64,000 bases of DNA from an uncultured Acidiferrobacteraceae bacterium (GTDB lineage: Bacteria; Pseudomonadota; Gammaproteobacteria; Acidiferrobacterales; SZUA-150), in NCBI GenBank assembly GCA_913009895.1, contig CAJVXY010000001.1:122469-186468 (forward strand). Reading direction: 5' to 3'. A program made the position numbers and the translations under genes. The notes beneath the pieces were generated by a model. It had not been told where the DNA came from. It saw only the letters and a program-made list of their open reading frames with translations, and made no database searches. Shown in pieces: positions 25,310 through 30,681 of the stretch (the first letter of the stretch is position 1; each line of letters begins with the position of its first letter).

Positions 25310-26545
25310 TTAGCAAAATAAGACGGATAGATGCGAGACATATTTATCGCTTTTGAGTCTTTCCTGAAATTGCTGCACCAACTGATCCGCATCGTTGTCC
25401 CCAAGCAAGGCCAGGGGCAGGATGATTTCCACATTTAGCTGACCATTCACATAGTGTAGCGTTGTCCGTCGTATGCTGTCAGCCAGCGCCAGCCCCCGGA
25501 ATTTCTCAGTTAAATGATTAACAATTATTTTGCGCTTGGGTAAGGCGAGACTTGCGGCAGCAGCCTGATCGTCTTCAGTGTCCACATGGACCATGACATC
25601 GCTTATGTGGGGAAATTCTTCGATCAGTTTTTTGCGTACCGATTCACCAATGTGATGACCTTCGGAAACACTCAGCAACGGGCTGACCTGAACGTGCACA
25701 TCTACCAATGCATCGCCGCCCATGCCCCGTGTCCGTAACATGTGTAGTGAATCAACCCCGCTGGCAGCAGTAATGCATTGATGGATGGCAGCCACTGTCT
25801 CTTTGTCGAGCGAGGTATCCACGAGCTGGCGCAAACTTTTCCAGCCCAGGTCCCAGCCAATCTTGGCGATGATGACAGCAACGGTTATGGCAGCAATGGC
25901 GTCAAGATAACCCAGGCCGGCCATGGTGCCGAGAATGCCAATCACAACTACGATAGAGGAGATGGCATCGGTGCGACTGTGCCAGGCATTTGCCTTGAGC
26001 ATATCCGAGCGTAATTTTTTTGCTACCGACATGGTGTAGTGGTAGATGGCTTCTTTGATAAAAATTGAAAGCAGGGCTACCGTCAGTGCCAGCCAACCGG
26101 GCTGGAGTAATAAATCGGGCTCGAACAATCTTCTGACGGCGTCATAACTGATACCACCGGCAACAGCTATCAAGGTTGCACCAAGCCCGACTGTTGCTGC
26201 AGTTTCGATTCGGGCATGTCCGTAGGGATGTTCTTCGTCTGCCGCTACGTTCGCGTGTTTGGCCGCATAAATCACCAGTATATCGGTTGCCAGGTCAGAG
26301 AGGGAATGGAGACCGTCGGCAATCAATGCCTGTGAGTGACTGACGATACCGATAGAGATTTTGCTAATTGCCAAAAGCAGATCGGCAACGGAACCGACTA
26401 GCGTTACCGTTAACGTTTGCTGGAATCGACTTTTATTTTTATTATTAATATTGTCCTGGCCAGTTGCGGGTGATTCCCGAGTTGTGCCCTGGCTTGAGCC
26501 CTGGGTTGAATAAGGCGTAGAGTCCGAGGATTTTTTTGAAATCAT
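25310..26545 (-). CDS. cation diffusion facilitator family transporter
   Basis: A 411-residue CDF metal exporter, FieF/ZitB-like. After a polar N-terminal 40 residues there are about six membrane segments. ADGLHSLSDLATD carries the first HxxxD metal site (helix 2) and the second, HSRTDAISSIVVVIG, is in helix 5; EEHPYGHARIET sits between. The C-terminal cytoplasmic domain (VDVHVQVSPLLSVSEGHHIGESV ... VMVHVDTEDD) is the metal-binding dimer module. It probably exports Zn2+ or Fe2+ using proton motive force. Its ATG overlaps the TusA-like stop by 4 bp, so it is in an operon with TusA and the PP-loop gene. Confidence 0.93.
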   Translation of the reverse strand: MISKKSSDSTPYSTQGSSQGTTRESPATGQDNINNKNKSRFQQTLTVTLVGSVADLLLAISKISIGIVSHSQALIADGLHSLSDLATDILVIYAAKHANVAADEEHPYGHARIETAATVGLGATLIAVAGGISYDAVRRLFEPDLLLQPGWLALTVALLSIFIKEAIYHYTMSVAKKLRSDMLKANAWHSRTDAISSIVVVIGILGTMAGLGYLDAIAAITVAVIIAKIGWDLGWKSLRQLVDTSLDKETVAAIHQCITAASGVDSLHMLRTRGMGGDALVDVHVQVSPLLSVSEGHHIGESVRKKLIEEFPHISDVMVHVDTEDDQAAAASLALPKRKIIVNHLTEKFRGLALADSIRRTTLHYVNGQLNVEIILPLALLGDNDADQLVQQFQERLKSDKYVSHLSVLFC

Positions 26546-26766
26546 TGCTCGCCCACCTCGATGGTTATCAGTATCTGCTTGTCACGTTCCTCAGCAGAGA
26601 CCAGGCGATGGCCATTAATACGGCACCAGGCAGGAATATCATGGAGGGCGCCGGGATCGGTGCAGACAATTTCCAGTTGTTCCCCTTGCGCCATCGTCAC
26701 CACTTTATCCTGGGTTCGGATAACAGGCATCGGGCAGAGCAGGTTGGAAACATCAAGCTTTTGCAT
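26542..26766 (-). CDS. TusA-like sulfurtransferase
   Basis: A 74-residue TusA/SirA-fold protein. The conserved active-site region is LLCPMPVIRT, with the reactive cysteine in the CPxP motif (about residue 11), followed by the usual GEQLEIVCTDPGALHDIPAWC two-layer fold. TusA proteins carry persulfide sulfur to tRNA thiolation, to molybdenum cofactor or, in sulfur oxidisers, to the DsrEFH/Hdr pathway. A second cysteine (about residue 36) and a third (about 48) are also present. It is 20 bp downstream of the PP-loop gene and coupled to the CDF gene. Confidence 0.93.
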   Translation of the reverse strand: MQKLDVSNLLCPMPVIRTQDKVVTMAQGEQLEIVCTDPGALHDIPAWCRINGHRLVSAEERDKQILITIEVGEQ

Positions 26767-26786
26767 AATAGTAGCAAGCAGTTAAA

Positions 26787-27854
26787 TTAAATAAACCAGT
26801 CCGCTGGAATATTGTCTTCTGATAATGGCGAAACAGTGAGCTCATGCTGGAGACCACTGGTATCATGAATTTCAAACGTAACTTGTTCGGCGGTCCGTCC
26901 CTTACCGTAACGGGCCGTGAGTTGCGCGGCCAGTTTGAGGTTTGCGATGCTGGTATCGCCATCTATAAGCGCAAGTGGACCAGTATGGCTGCTAGCCTGT
27001 AGACTCGTAAACCGCTTCCGATAACCACTGAGGAAATTGGTTTCTCCTTCGTCACGGGCGATAATAACTTTAGTATTTTCATTGGGGCGAATATGTCTGC
27101 CAACTTTAAGCAGCATTATGTCGTCGAGATCATAATTTTTGTTGCCCCGTGCCTGCCATAAGTCGCCGAGTTTTTTGGCGTAACTGGCGTCCGTTAAAAA
27201 ACAGCAGCCGCCTGCAGGTTGGGCATAGTCTTGAAATCCAAATTCATTTGCCAGTGCCATTTGGGGTTTACGATTACGGCCATTGAATGCCAGCAGTTTC
27301 TCGCGGTTAACCCAGCCATTACGTTCGGGCAAAGTTTCTGGCAGTAACTGCGCGCAAAGTGGTCTTAGTAATAAATCGTTTGCGCCTGACTCCCGGGCAA
27401 TCACCGGCATGGTATCTTTGCGTTGACTCATGGGTCTTTGGCCAATGACTTCACCGGTAATAATAAAATCGAAATTATGTTCAATAATCCACTCATGGGC
27501 CTTGCGCACCATAAACCCTTTACAATCCAGGCATGGATTCAGGTTGGCACCATAACCATGTTTCGGGTTAGTGAGCACATCTTTATACTCATCGATGACA
27601 TCAACTATATGTAATTTGATGCCCAGTTGTTCGGCCACCCACAGGGCATTATTTCTTTTTTGTTTTTTTTTGTCCTGGTTACGGATCGCGTGGGTATGGC
27701 CCTCAACACAAAAACCTGTGTAAAAGTTTATTCCCTCAATATGTATGCCCTGTTCGAGCATTAATTTTGCGGCCAACAGACTGTCCAGTCCGCCAGATAT
27801 CAAGGCGACGGCCTTACGGGGTTGATGCAACTGGTCTGCCTGGTGTTGGGTCAT
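26787..27854 (-). CDS. PP-loop ATP pyrophosphatase related to MnmA/ThiI
   Basis: A 355-residue PP-loop enzyme. The ATP pyrophosphatase motif is ALISGGLDSLLAAKLML at residue 17 on. Cysteine motifs NPCLDCKGFMV (near residue 103) and PAGGCCFLTD (near 220) lie at places where tRNA thiolases and related proteins hold catalytic or Fe-S cysteines. The C-terminal part (KRFTSLQASSHTGPLALIDGD) is less familiar. The family is usually annotated as thiouridylase-related; the substrate may be a tRNA uridine or another thiolated product. Adjacent TusA-like sulfurtransferase supports a sulfur-transfer reaction. The exact product is not known. Confidence 0.78.
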   Translation of the reverse strand: MTQHQADQLHQPRKAVALISGGLDSLLAAKLMLEQGIHIEGINFYTGFCVEGHTHAIRNQDKKKQKRNNALWVAEQLGIKLHIVDVIDEYKDVLTNPKHGYGANLNPCLDCKGFMVRKAHEWIIEHNFDFIITGEVIGQRPMSQRKDTMPVIARESGANDLLLRPLCAQLLPETLPERNGWVNREKLLAFNGRNRKPQMALANEFGFQDYAQPAGGCCFLTDASYAKKLGDLWQARGNKNYDLDDIMLLKVGRHIRPNENTKVIIARDEGETNFLSGYRKRFTSLQASSHTGPLALIDGDTSIANLKLAAQLTARYGKGRTAEQVTFEIHDTSGLQHELTVSPLSEDNIPADWFI

Positions 27855-28211: not shown

Positions 28212-29525
28212 TTATTTGCTTAAAATGCGTTTCTTTTTCCAATTGTAGCGTTGCATATGGGCACCCCTGCCAGGTTCAAATTCACCTTGCTCAATATGGG
28301 TATAAACAATGGGTTTGTTGCAATCAAAGGCATAGCGACTGGCCTCATAATTGAGTTTGATATTGTTAACATCTGCAAGCTCACAGGGATTCCCATTGTT
28401 TTTACCTGTTTTGCCCCTGATTTTTTTGCCAAGTTTTTTCAGGTCGAGATGGATGCGGGCATAGGGACGCTTGTTCTTGGATGTTGATTTAGTGGCAGCA
28501 TTTTTAGTATCGATGTCCAGCTTGCTATTTTTATTTTCGCCAGGCCATCGAGCCTCGATTTGAGTAGCCGTAAAATTTTTTGCAATCGGTGCCCAGTATC
28601 CCGCTACAACCACCCATAAACCTAATATCAGGATTTGTGACAGGAACACCAGTTTTAAAGGCTGGATAAAGGGAAACAGTACCGCCACCAGGTAGGACAT
28701 GGGGTGATAACGGGGAATAAACGCATCACTTTTGGTCGCCAGGGCACGCAGGTTGGCCATTCTTTTTGAGGCCCAGGGTGTGTCAGAAAGTAATTCTGCC
28801 AAAGACATTGTAAAACCGGAAATGGGCGCGTTTTGTTTGTTAAATTCAGGAATATTCAGAGATATCCAGCGCGGGTCACCTGCCACGTTCATGGCCAGTG
28901 CCAGTGCAGCATCCACTTGCGATTTGCATGCTGCCAATGCAACACCATCACAGCGGAATAGTTCCATTCTTTTCCTGGCCGCATTGACCAGGGGAAAAAC
29001 GGTGCTTGGCCACAGTAGCCAACGCCATTTGCTGTGTGGGACAATTAATTTGGCGACTTCAGAACCAATTAAAAAATCTATACTGCCCTGGCGATCTGTC
29101 AGGATACCGACACTGTCGGCTGGCAAAACCACATGTAATTTTTTACCAAGGCGCAGGCTGTTGAATCTGTCAGCCGTGGCCCCGTTGAGCAAGTAGCCAT
29201 GTATTTCATTGTCTATCCCCAAACGTTTACAGACAGACTTAACTCTTTTATATAAATCCGGGTATTGTTTTGGCCCCAGTTCTACGGCAAAACCGCGTAA
29301 ATATGCCAGGCGTTGGATCCTGATAACGGCATTAATAACGATTGTGATTAACAGCACCACCAAAGCCGCCGCCAATACCAGCTGCCAACTCACCTGGTAT
29401 TGCTGCAAGAGCGACCTGAAACTGGCCAGTTCAAAATATATTAAAGTGAACAGGCCAGACCAGAATATAGAGGAAACGGTCAAAGCCGCTAAAAAAAGTT
29501 GTTTTTGTTGGCGGGTCGCTTGCAT
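28212..29525 (-). CDS. degenerate M48-like membrane protein (HExxH lost)
   Basis: A 437-residue membrane protein with two N-terminal helices (about 14-36 and 47-68) and more near 270-310. The middle follows the M48 peptidase plan (HGYLLNGATADRFNSLRLGKKLHVV, then FLIGSEVAKLI, then RKRMELFRCDGVALAAC), but the zinc motif is not HExxH: FLIGSEVAKL stands where family members have FxxGHExGH, so both histidines are gone. The Glu/Asp ELFRCD position is kept. The protein is therefore likely a catalytically dead homologue, perhaps a regulator or chaperone. A Lys-rich linker leads to a small C-terminal domain with two cysteines (NPCELADV, FDCNKP). Confidence 0.7.
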   Translation of the reverse strand: MQATRQQKQLFLAALTVSSIFWSGLFTLIYFELASFRSLLQQYQVSWQLVLAAALVVLLITIVINAVIRIQRLAYLRGFAVELGPKQYPDLYKRVKSVCKRLGIDNEIHGYLLNGATADRFNSLRLGKKLHVVLPADSVGILTDRQGSIDFLIGSEVAKLIVPHSKWRWLLWPSTVFPLVNAARKRMELFRCDGVALAACKSQVDAALALAMNVAGDPRWISLNIPEFNKQNAPISGFTMSLAELLSDTPWASKRMANLRALATKSDAFIPRYHPMSYLVAVLFPFIQPLKLVFLSQILILGLWVVVAGYWAPIAKNFTATQIEARWPGENKNSKLDIDTKNAATKSTSKNKRPYARIHLDLKKLGKKIRGKTGKNNGNPCELADVNNIKLNYEASRYAFDCNKPIVYTHIEQGEFEPGRGAHMQRYNWKKKRILSK

Positions 29526-29680
29526 TAGTATGCAGCTCCTGCTGGAAACATAAGGCTCCGGCTGCCGGCAATAACACCATGTTGATCATTTAGATTTAGG
29601 GCGGCCATAAAAATTGTGCTAAACAAAGGAATGTAGTGTCTATTATTAATTATCAAGTTGTTATCATAACCTTCTAGACG

Positions 29681-30457
29681 ATGTTTTGGCGATTCTCGCA
29701 CTGGCGTTACAAAAAATCGAAGCAGCCGAAAACTGTGAAGGAGCCCCGGCGGCTGCGTTTTCTGTGGCGTGTGCTGGTTTGGGGGTCACGTCTCTTTATA
29801 CTGATTATTATTGTTGATTTGTTTTATGTTGCCAAAATTTGGCCTGACTGGGATAAATTAAGCAAAGGAGCGGTGCCTAAAAGTAATTTTATGCATATTT
29901 ATGCCCGGGAAAGAAAAAAACACAAAAATTGGCCATATCGACACTGGATTCGGGTCCCAATAAGTAAAATACCCGCCCATGTCAGTCGGGCCGTTATCGT
30001 GGGCGAAGATAGTCGTTTTTATGACCATGGTGGTTTTGATTTTCTCGCCTTTCGTGAGGCCATGGGGCGCAACGTGGAGAAAGGCCGCATGCGTTATGGT
30101 GCCAGCACAATTTCTCAACAAACCGTGAAAAACCTGTTTTTAAGCGGTAGTCGTACGCCGTTGCGAAAATGGCACGAATTGCTCATGACGTGGGGCATGG
30201 AGGATCGCTTATCGAAACGACGGATCCTGGAAATCTACCTGAATATCGCCGAATTTGGCCTGGGAGTTTATGGTGTCGAGGCCGCATCCCGCCATTATTG
30301 GGGAAAATCTGTGACCGAGTTGTCGCTTCTTGAGGCGGCGCAACTGGCTGCCAGCCTGCCAAGCCCCCGAAAACATAACCCGGCCACGGCCACTAAAGCC
30401 TTCCAGAACAGAACGGAAAGAGTCTATTACTGGTTAACCAAAATACAGGATCAGTGA
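29681..30457 (+). CDS. mtgA: monofunctional peptidoglycan glycosyltransferase
   Basis: MtgA, GT51 family, polymerises lipid II into glycan strands. One transmembrane helix near residues 32-52, then the catalytic domain: VIVGEDSRFYDHGGFD contains the catalytic ED-F-xxH-x-G motif 1, GASTISQQTVKNLFLS motif 2, RRILEIYLNIAEFGLGVYG motif 4. The 258 residues are the size of the single-domain enzyme without a transpeptidase. Unusually the N-terminus is very basic (RYKKSKQPKTVKEPRRL). Single gene, divergent from the M48-like protein. Confidence 0.95.
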   Translation: MFWRFSHWRYKKSKQPKTVKEPRRLRFLWRVLVWGSRLFILIIIVDLFYVAKIWPDWDKLSKGAVPKSNFMHIYARERKKHKNWPYRHWIRVPISKIPAHVSRAVIVGEDSRFYDHGGFDFLAFREAMGRNVEKGRMRYGASTISQQTVKNLFLSGSRTPLRKWHELLMTWGMEDRLSKRRILEIYLNIAEFGLGVYGVEAASRHYWGKSVTELSLLEAAQLAASLPSPRKHNPATATKAFQNRTERVYYWLTKIQDQ

Positions 30458-30522
30458 TCGCTGAAGCCGTGGTTTGTTACATTTTGAGCGCTTAGGTAGC
30501 TAAAAACACCCTCTACCCCGAA

Positions 30523-30681
30523 TGGCACTGACTTAAGCCTAATATCTGGTTTAAACATGGTTTCCCGCAGGTTGGACTGAGGAACGAAGTCCAACGTAAG
30601 TGTTAAATAAAGCGCCGCTGTTGGACTTCGTTCCTCAGTCCAACCCACAAAAAAAGACTTATTGGGCTTAAGTCAGTGCCA
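30523..30681. mobile_element. MITE-like palindromic element
   Basis: A 159-bp element with perfect 17-bp terminal inverted repeats (TGGCACTGACTTAAGCC at 30523-30539 and its complement at 30665-30681). Inside are two perfect 25-bp copies, inverted relative to each other, at 30571-30595 and 30620-30644, each itself a near-palindrome with GTTGGACT and AGTCCAAC arms. The GTTGGACTTCG...AGTCCAAC phrase is a common REP/MITE motif in bacterial genomes. It encodes no transposase and lies between mtgA and glyQ; no clear target-site duplication is visible. Confidence 0.78.

Follow-up and report, generated by a model that had tools for sequence, protein, structure and literature searches.

The locus considered here lies in a window of 64,000 nucleotides, the whole stretch of DNA that was analysed, from an uncultured Acidiferrobacteraceae bacterium. 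One of its reading frames encodes a protein, P0001, in which the sequence SEVAK stands where a peptidase of the M48 family would carry its zinc-binding HExxH. This raises the question whether P0001 is M48 by descent, whether the loss of the zinc site is shared and selected, and for which purpose such a protein is kept. The reading frame is intact, starts with ATG and includes the stretch FLIGSEVAKLI, as seen from the open reading frame listing and its translation. The gene and the segments of its product are the following:

28212..29525, minus strand: gene of the M48-derived pseudopeptidase P0001, 437 aa (open reading frame call and homology)
29439..29495, minus strand: predicted TM1, residues 11-29, first hydrophobic segment (Kyte-Doolittle scan)
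29322..29378, minus strand: predicted TM2, residues 50-68, second hydrophobic segment (Kyte-Doolittle scan)
28665..29312, minus strand: M48-derived core, residues 72-287 (profile comparisons)
29049..29063, minus strand: dead zinc motif SEVAK, residues 155-159, at the HExxH columns (alignments)
28959..28961, minus strand: Leu189, column of the third zinc ligand, Glu in intact relatives (alignment counts)
28596..28652, minus strand: predicted TM3, residues 292-310, third hydrophobic segment (Kyte-Doolittle scan and alignment)
28215..28469, minus strand: C-terminal domain, residues 353-437, with GEFE.G and the invariant Cys 381 and 402 (alignments and searches)

In the alignment, TM3 of P0001 lies near where intact relatives have their pilin-like helix, and a weaker hydrophobic segment (residues 282-300) overlaps it in the Kyte-Doolittle scan. 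The orthologues have a hydropathy pattern like that of P0001, with an extra weak segment in several of them and with the second segment below threshold in one (L016). Scans for promoters (5 sites vs. 3.7 expected, sd 2.1) and terminators (0 vs. 2.1 expected) were uninformative.

On its own, P0001 gave no match in Pfam or in NCBIfam with a limit as loose as E≤10, so that its M48 resemblance is invisible to these two libraries. A protein search with P0001 retrieves relatives carrying FYIGHE(L/M)GH exactly opposite FLIGSEVAKL, and therefore the resemblance of the SEVAK region to M48 is not due to chance. These intact relatives align with P0001 along the N-terminal half, with HE[LM]GH falling exactly on SEVAK, which confirmed the original prediction that SEVAK replaces HExxH within FLIGSEVAKLI. 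At the level of profiles, the 11 full-length orthologues without HExxH, here called the dead form, matched four intact relatives (100%, E 7.9e-51) as well as seven HtpX-type proteins (97.1%, E 5.6e-11; SEVAK pairs with AHELAH); the latter comparison is not independent, since the profile of the dead proteins had itself recruited these seven as earlier matches (E 7e-5 to 1e-3). A core profile of the 11 dead proteins matched 43 of 1412 open reading frames, 23 with and 20 without HExxH, a count which includes duplicates; many of the loci had entered the set through searches of a related kind. None of 1412 shuffled and none of 1412 reversed reading frames was matched. Furthermore, PF01435 was found at E≤1 in five of nine dead orthologues scanned, and orthologue L015 passes the curated cut-off of this model (30.4 vs. 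20.3 bits). Where single orthologues weakly matched other Pfam models (E 0.0049 to 0.52), we attributed this to chance.

Searched against solved structures, a 15-row profile had three matches at E≤1 (E 0.28-0.53), none of them an M48 protein. A 22-row profile, which includes intact M48 and HtpX rows, matched by sequence the HtpX homologue 3cqb (E 6e-6) and Ste24p 4il3 (E 3.6e-6), and it tells little about the dead members because of these intact rows and because it also matches pilins. A structure prediction from two sequences only (P0001 and its relative L026) reached a mean pLDDT of 35 and a pTM of 0.22, too low for a usable model. Judged by the sequence comparisons, P0001 is M48 by descent, and the ancestor was most likely a membrane M48 peptidase with a type IV pilin-like tail.

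HExxH is absent at any position from all 11 full-length dead reading frames; an intact motif elsewhere in the orthologues was looked for specifically. The second zinc His is found in none of the 11 members (Arg in six, Lys in two, Trp in two, Leu in one), and the same holds for the third-ligand Glu (Ile in four, Leu in three, Val in three, Thr in one), the column of which lies four residues before a conserved Asp. The first zinc His is still present in three members. The catalytic Glu, in the column of E156, is kept in ten of the 11 and replaced by Gln in L012, and the conserved Asp (D193) is present in all of them. Within the intact comparison set of 12 pilin-type proteins, from which the more distant L031, L073 and L074, the fragment L075 and the HtpX-type rows were left out, both His, the catalytic Glu, the third-ligand Glu and the Asp occur in 12 of 12. 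The loss is conserved among these 11 orthologues, with the second His and the third-ligand Glu gone throughout. The retention of flanking M48 features, also part of the original prediction, holds for the catalytic Glu, for D193 and for a number of structural positions, whereas the NAFA motif of the intact relatives and the third zinc ligand have been lost in the dead group.

Along the whole aligned protein, no His is conserved in at least ten of the 11 dead members. Cys, Asp or Glu are conserved to this extent at 13 positions, and an unusual metal site formed by such residues is therefore conceivable. The dead group has also fixed residues of its own: T143, R145, Q146, G147 and D150, directly before SEVAK, as well as K201, V204 and R260 occur in at most two of the 12 intact relatives.

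In a 31-row tree, built without columns 155, 156, 159 and 189, with four of the seven HtpX-type rows and with L075 excluded, the 11 dead proteins form one branch with a support of 100/100. Support drops to 85/50 where this branch joins the 12 pilin-type proteins. By parsimony, a single loss of the second His and the third-ligand Glu would have preceded the spread of the group, with erosion of the first His under way ever since; the presence of this His in three members fits such an erosion.

The two closest copies, P0001 and L026, were compared by the Nei-Gojobori method, which gave a dN/dS of 0.111 overall, 0.227 for residues 1-85, 0.105 for residues 86-285 and 0.028 for residues 356-437. The C-terminal domain is 95% identical between the two species, with synonymous sites there differing by about 47%. 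All 11 full-length frames are open, and a TAG in genome G002 falls, by its coordinates, at the end of its frame. As judged by these ratios, the dead protein is under strong purifying selection, with the strongest figure in the C-terminal domain. The idea of a selected pseudo-enzyme is hence supported by the loss in all 11 full-length orthologues, their single branch and the dN/dS of 0.11. On the grounds of the common loss and of purifying selection, P0001 is a conserved pseudopeptidase, for which the absence of peptidase activity is predicted.

A single-protein scan of genome contigs returned one relative, L026 of the sister species, with 85% identity. When 60 related genomes were searched with P0001, matches were found in 17, comprising 11 full-length proteins without HExxH (that of the window included), four full-length proteins with HE[LM]GH and two contig-end pieces, which are all that G003 and G005 contain of the protein. 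The ten full-length dead orthologues besides P0001 all belong to the order of the host. Within this order, the dead form is present in 13 of 57 genomes (11 full, two pieces) and missing from 44, some of these absences possibly being gaps since assembly completeness varies. This suggests that the gene is dispensable and not essential in general. Samples taken more widely gave seven matching genomes out of 369 for the class (the host, five with intact HExxH and genome G181) and 16 out of 398 for the phylum (the host and 15 with HExxH).

The match in G181 is another M48-like protein without a zinc site (L032:1414-2406, minus strand), with RFLGR at HExxH and Ala at the third ligand. In the tree it forms a long branch outside the dead group, and a search against 55 other genomes gave one weak match (E 5.9e-4), to an HEMGH protein. 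The gene beside it looks TIR-like by eye.

The place of the dead gene is described by three further features of the window:

29681..30457, plus strand: mtgA-like gene, peptidoglycan transglycosylase, divergent neighbour (PF00912)
29526..29680, no strand: divergent intergenic region between the dead gene and mtgA (conserved in the sister species)
26787..27854, minus strand: ThiI/MnmA-like gene with NFACT-R_2 domain, neighbour on the other side (domain scan)

A divergent mtgA lies beside the dead gene in all 11 full-length genomes, in ten according to gene tables and in G034 according to coordinates, where an antisense open reading frame had masked the gene in its table; mtgA also adjoins the contig-end fragment in G005. 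The ThiI-like gene with NFACT-R_2 is found on the other side in nine of the 11, and the contig ends there in G022 and G052. The conserved block around the dead gene comprises glyQ, glyS, the ThiI-like gene, a cation efflux gene, glnA, ntrB and ntrC. Across the order, mtgA is present in 44 of 57 genomes at E≤1e-40 and the ThiI/MnmA-like NFACT-R_2 gene in 54 of 57.

Some observations concern the same neighborhood. In genome G022, another contig ends in a further C-terminal piece of this protein (L128:1-150), adjoining the ThiI-like gene, and this perhaps reflects a second strain in the assembly. In the window (26542-27854), a TusA gene adjoins the ThiI/MnmA-like protein with its C-terminal NFACT-R_2 domain; the two are possibly a sulfur-transfer or tRNA-thiolation pair. 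Between mtgA and glyQ (30520-30680), nested inverted repeats with the arms GTTGGACT...AGTCCAAC were noticed by eye, which resemble a small REP- or MITE-like element.

The spacing between the flanking genes was measured in 41 genomes in which both were matched on one contig. With the dead gene (nine genomes), 1627-1941 bases lie between the flanking matches. Without it (32 genomes), the distance is 86-729 bases in 30 and 2534 and 8000 bases in the other two. By eye, the insert of about 8 kb at this spot in L113 (G036) seems to include a two-component system, and the 2.5 kb insert in L114 (G027) resembles a transposase. In 19 loci without the dead gene, a search of open stretches of at least 20 residues found no remnant at E≤0.01, one match having an E of 0.92. 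A tree of the two flanking proteins from 32 genomes (all 13 that have the gene and 19 of the 44 that lack it), rooted on family f3, needs six changes of presence (5-7 in bootstraps), of which well-supported branches force only one. Our own reading of this pattern, offered as not proven, is that the dead gene may have been ancestrally present and then cleanly lost several times.

The C-terminal domain of the dead group comprises about 85 residues, with C381, C402, G414, E415, F416, E417, G419 and W429 invariant. Among the 398 sampled phylum genomes it was found in the host only, and up to now it is confined to the dead group. The pilin model PF00114 matches four of the 15 A2 proteins, L019 among them, and is absent from P0001 and from the nine dead orthologues scanned with Pfam. 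That the C-terminal domain might be a worn pilin head was considered and is unsupported, as the C-terminal profiles mismatch (hhalign probability 0.1%).

Most of the related proteins that keep HE[ILM]GH in the SEVAK columns end in a type IV pilin-like domain. These pilin-tailed membrane peptidases are themselves a group of note, comprising L019-L022, L029, L030 and L068-L072. They occur in Gammaproteobacteria, with L069 lying outside the class. Pilin models match L019, L029, L030 and L070, and the remaining members were judged by eye. A literature search on titles and the first part of abstracts found no paper combining the M48 family with a pilin domain.

With regard to function, the reading we prefer, and hold to be rather probable, is that the dead protein is a non-catalytic, two-sided membrane adaptor or scaffold descended from a membrane M48 peptidase. 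Two N-terminal helices would anchor the protein with the M48-like core on the cytoplasmic side, the third helix would cross the membrane, and the C-terminal domain would be periplasmic, with its two invariant cysteines perhaps forming a disulfide. This topology is proposed from the hydropathy together with the pilin architecture of the relatives; a cytoplasmic core and a periplasmic C-terminus would be analogous to pilins and HtpX. Core and C-terminal domain would each bind partners, and the protein, without cutting, would hold these partners together or pass a state across the membrane. Contacts would likely be made by the C-terminal domain and by the T[DE]RQGAIDF stretch that directly precedes SEVAK, the fixed residues of which are seldom found in intact relatives. 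The setting would most likely be the upkeep of the inner membrane or the cell wall, and an envelope role is plausible from the hydrophobic segments and the divergent mtgA. The catalytic Glu retained in ten of 11 members counts against a pure scaffold, unless this Glu is structural.

An alternative we regard as unlikely is that the dead protein controls an active M48 protease, acting for instance as a dominant-negative subunit or as a decoy for another M48 protein of the host. In a review (PMC11266112), pseudoenzymes are credited with such regulation of active cousins. The host genome has seven PF01435 matches, every one with HExxH, and each of the 13 genomes that contain the dead form has three to ten, while most genomes of family f3, which lack it, have one and those of family f5 two to five. 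Against this stand the genomes of family f7, which lack the dead form and yet have many matches (eight in G010 and nine in G015, but three in G044 and G056), so that the number of M48 proteins tracks lineage as much as the dead gene. The regulation of "the real protease" put forward in the original prediction finds no support in its most direct form: the intact pilin-type M48 is present in four and the dead form in 13 of the 57 order genomes, and they never occur together (0/57), which makes regulation of its own sister type unlikely. An active paralogue exists insofar as the host has its seven intact M48 proteins; all of these are distant, and the 15-row A2 profile matched none of them.

Comparably doubtful is the possibility that the dead protein is a partner of the peptidoglycan glycosyltransferase MtgA, which it would control or anchor. 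The divergent mtgA in 11 of 11 full-length genomes and beside the G005 fragment, as well as the intergenic region conserved in the sister species, speak for it. Since the whole gene block is conserved, however, this adjacency is weak evidence, and with mtgA in 44 and the dead gene in 13 of 57 order genomes, MtgA generally does without the dead protein. Therefore, MtgA as a partner would be only a weak lead. The composite picture remains equally speculative, namely an undescribed, order-specific M48 pseudopeptidase family derived from a pilin-tailed membrane protease, which would have lost its zinc, acquired a new domain in the periplasm in place of its pilin-like head and come to link, as an adaptor across the membrane, a cytoplasmic binding site to the cell-wall synthesis carried out by the neighbouring MtgA.

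It is very improbable that the dead protein still catalyses via Glu156 and Asp193, either zinc-free or with a metal on other residues. The near-constant E156 and the invariant D193 speak for it, but no His is conserved to the same degree, E156 gives way to Gln in L012 and the NAFA motif has gone. A decaying gene without a present role, which its absence from many relatives with a mostly short gap between the flanking genes might suggest, is rejected as scarcely credible, being largely refuted by the selection result (open frames throughout, dN/dS of 0.11, and a C-terminal domain conserved despite its synonymous divergence) and further opposed by the lack of remnants in the 19 loci.

Returning to the adaptor or scaffold, pseudopeptidases are a known kind of protein, and pseudoproteases are best known from eukaryotes. 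Within the open-licence literature searched by title or start of abstract, no description of a bacterial M48 pseudopeptidase was found, and within those limits an M48 example from bacteria appears to be new. In the main text of the review on inactive metallopeptidases (PMC11266112), as covered by a term search, M48, HtpX and Ste24 are absent. For piroplasms, M41, M48 and M79 proteinases and non-proteinase homologues are grouped together in a passage of one paper (PMC9965338), and thus inactive M48 homologues in protists may already be in print. The bacterial case offers a clear before and after, with intact relatives, one dead branch and a last zinc ligand that is partly eroded, to which a different C-terminal domain, strong selection and a fixed genomic place are added. 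It makes testable which role a membrane M48 protein can have once its ability to cut is gone.

Among known systems, the pilin-tailed M48 proteins (e.g., L019 with PF01435 and PF00114) resemble the dead group most directly, sharing the N-terminal half with its hydrophobic segments and core as well as the later hydrophobic segment. They differ from the dead group by their pilin-like C-terminus and by an intact zinc site, with HE[ILM]GH and the Glu of the third ligand present in 12 of 12 proteins compared. The zinc metalloprotease HtpX (M48B) matches the dead group by profile along 198 columns including the active-site stretch, whereas zinc ligands are missing in the dead group and its C-terminal domain is peculiar to it. 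In their way of working only, the iRhoms of the rhomboid family are comparable, being membrane protease relatives kept after catalysis was lost. The derlins, also of the rhomboid family (PMC9965338), and plant FtsHi (PMC8197885) are further examples. These families are unrelated to the dead protein, which is M48.
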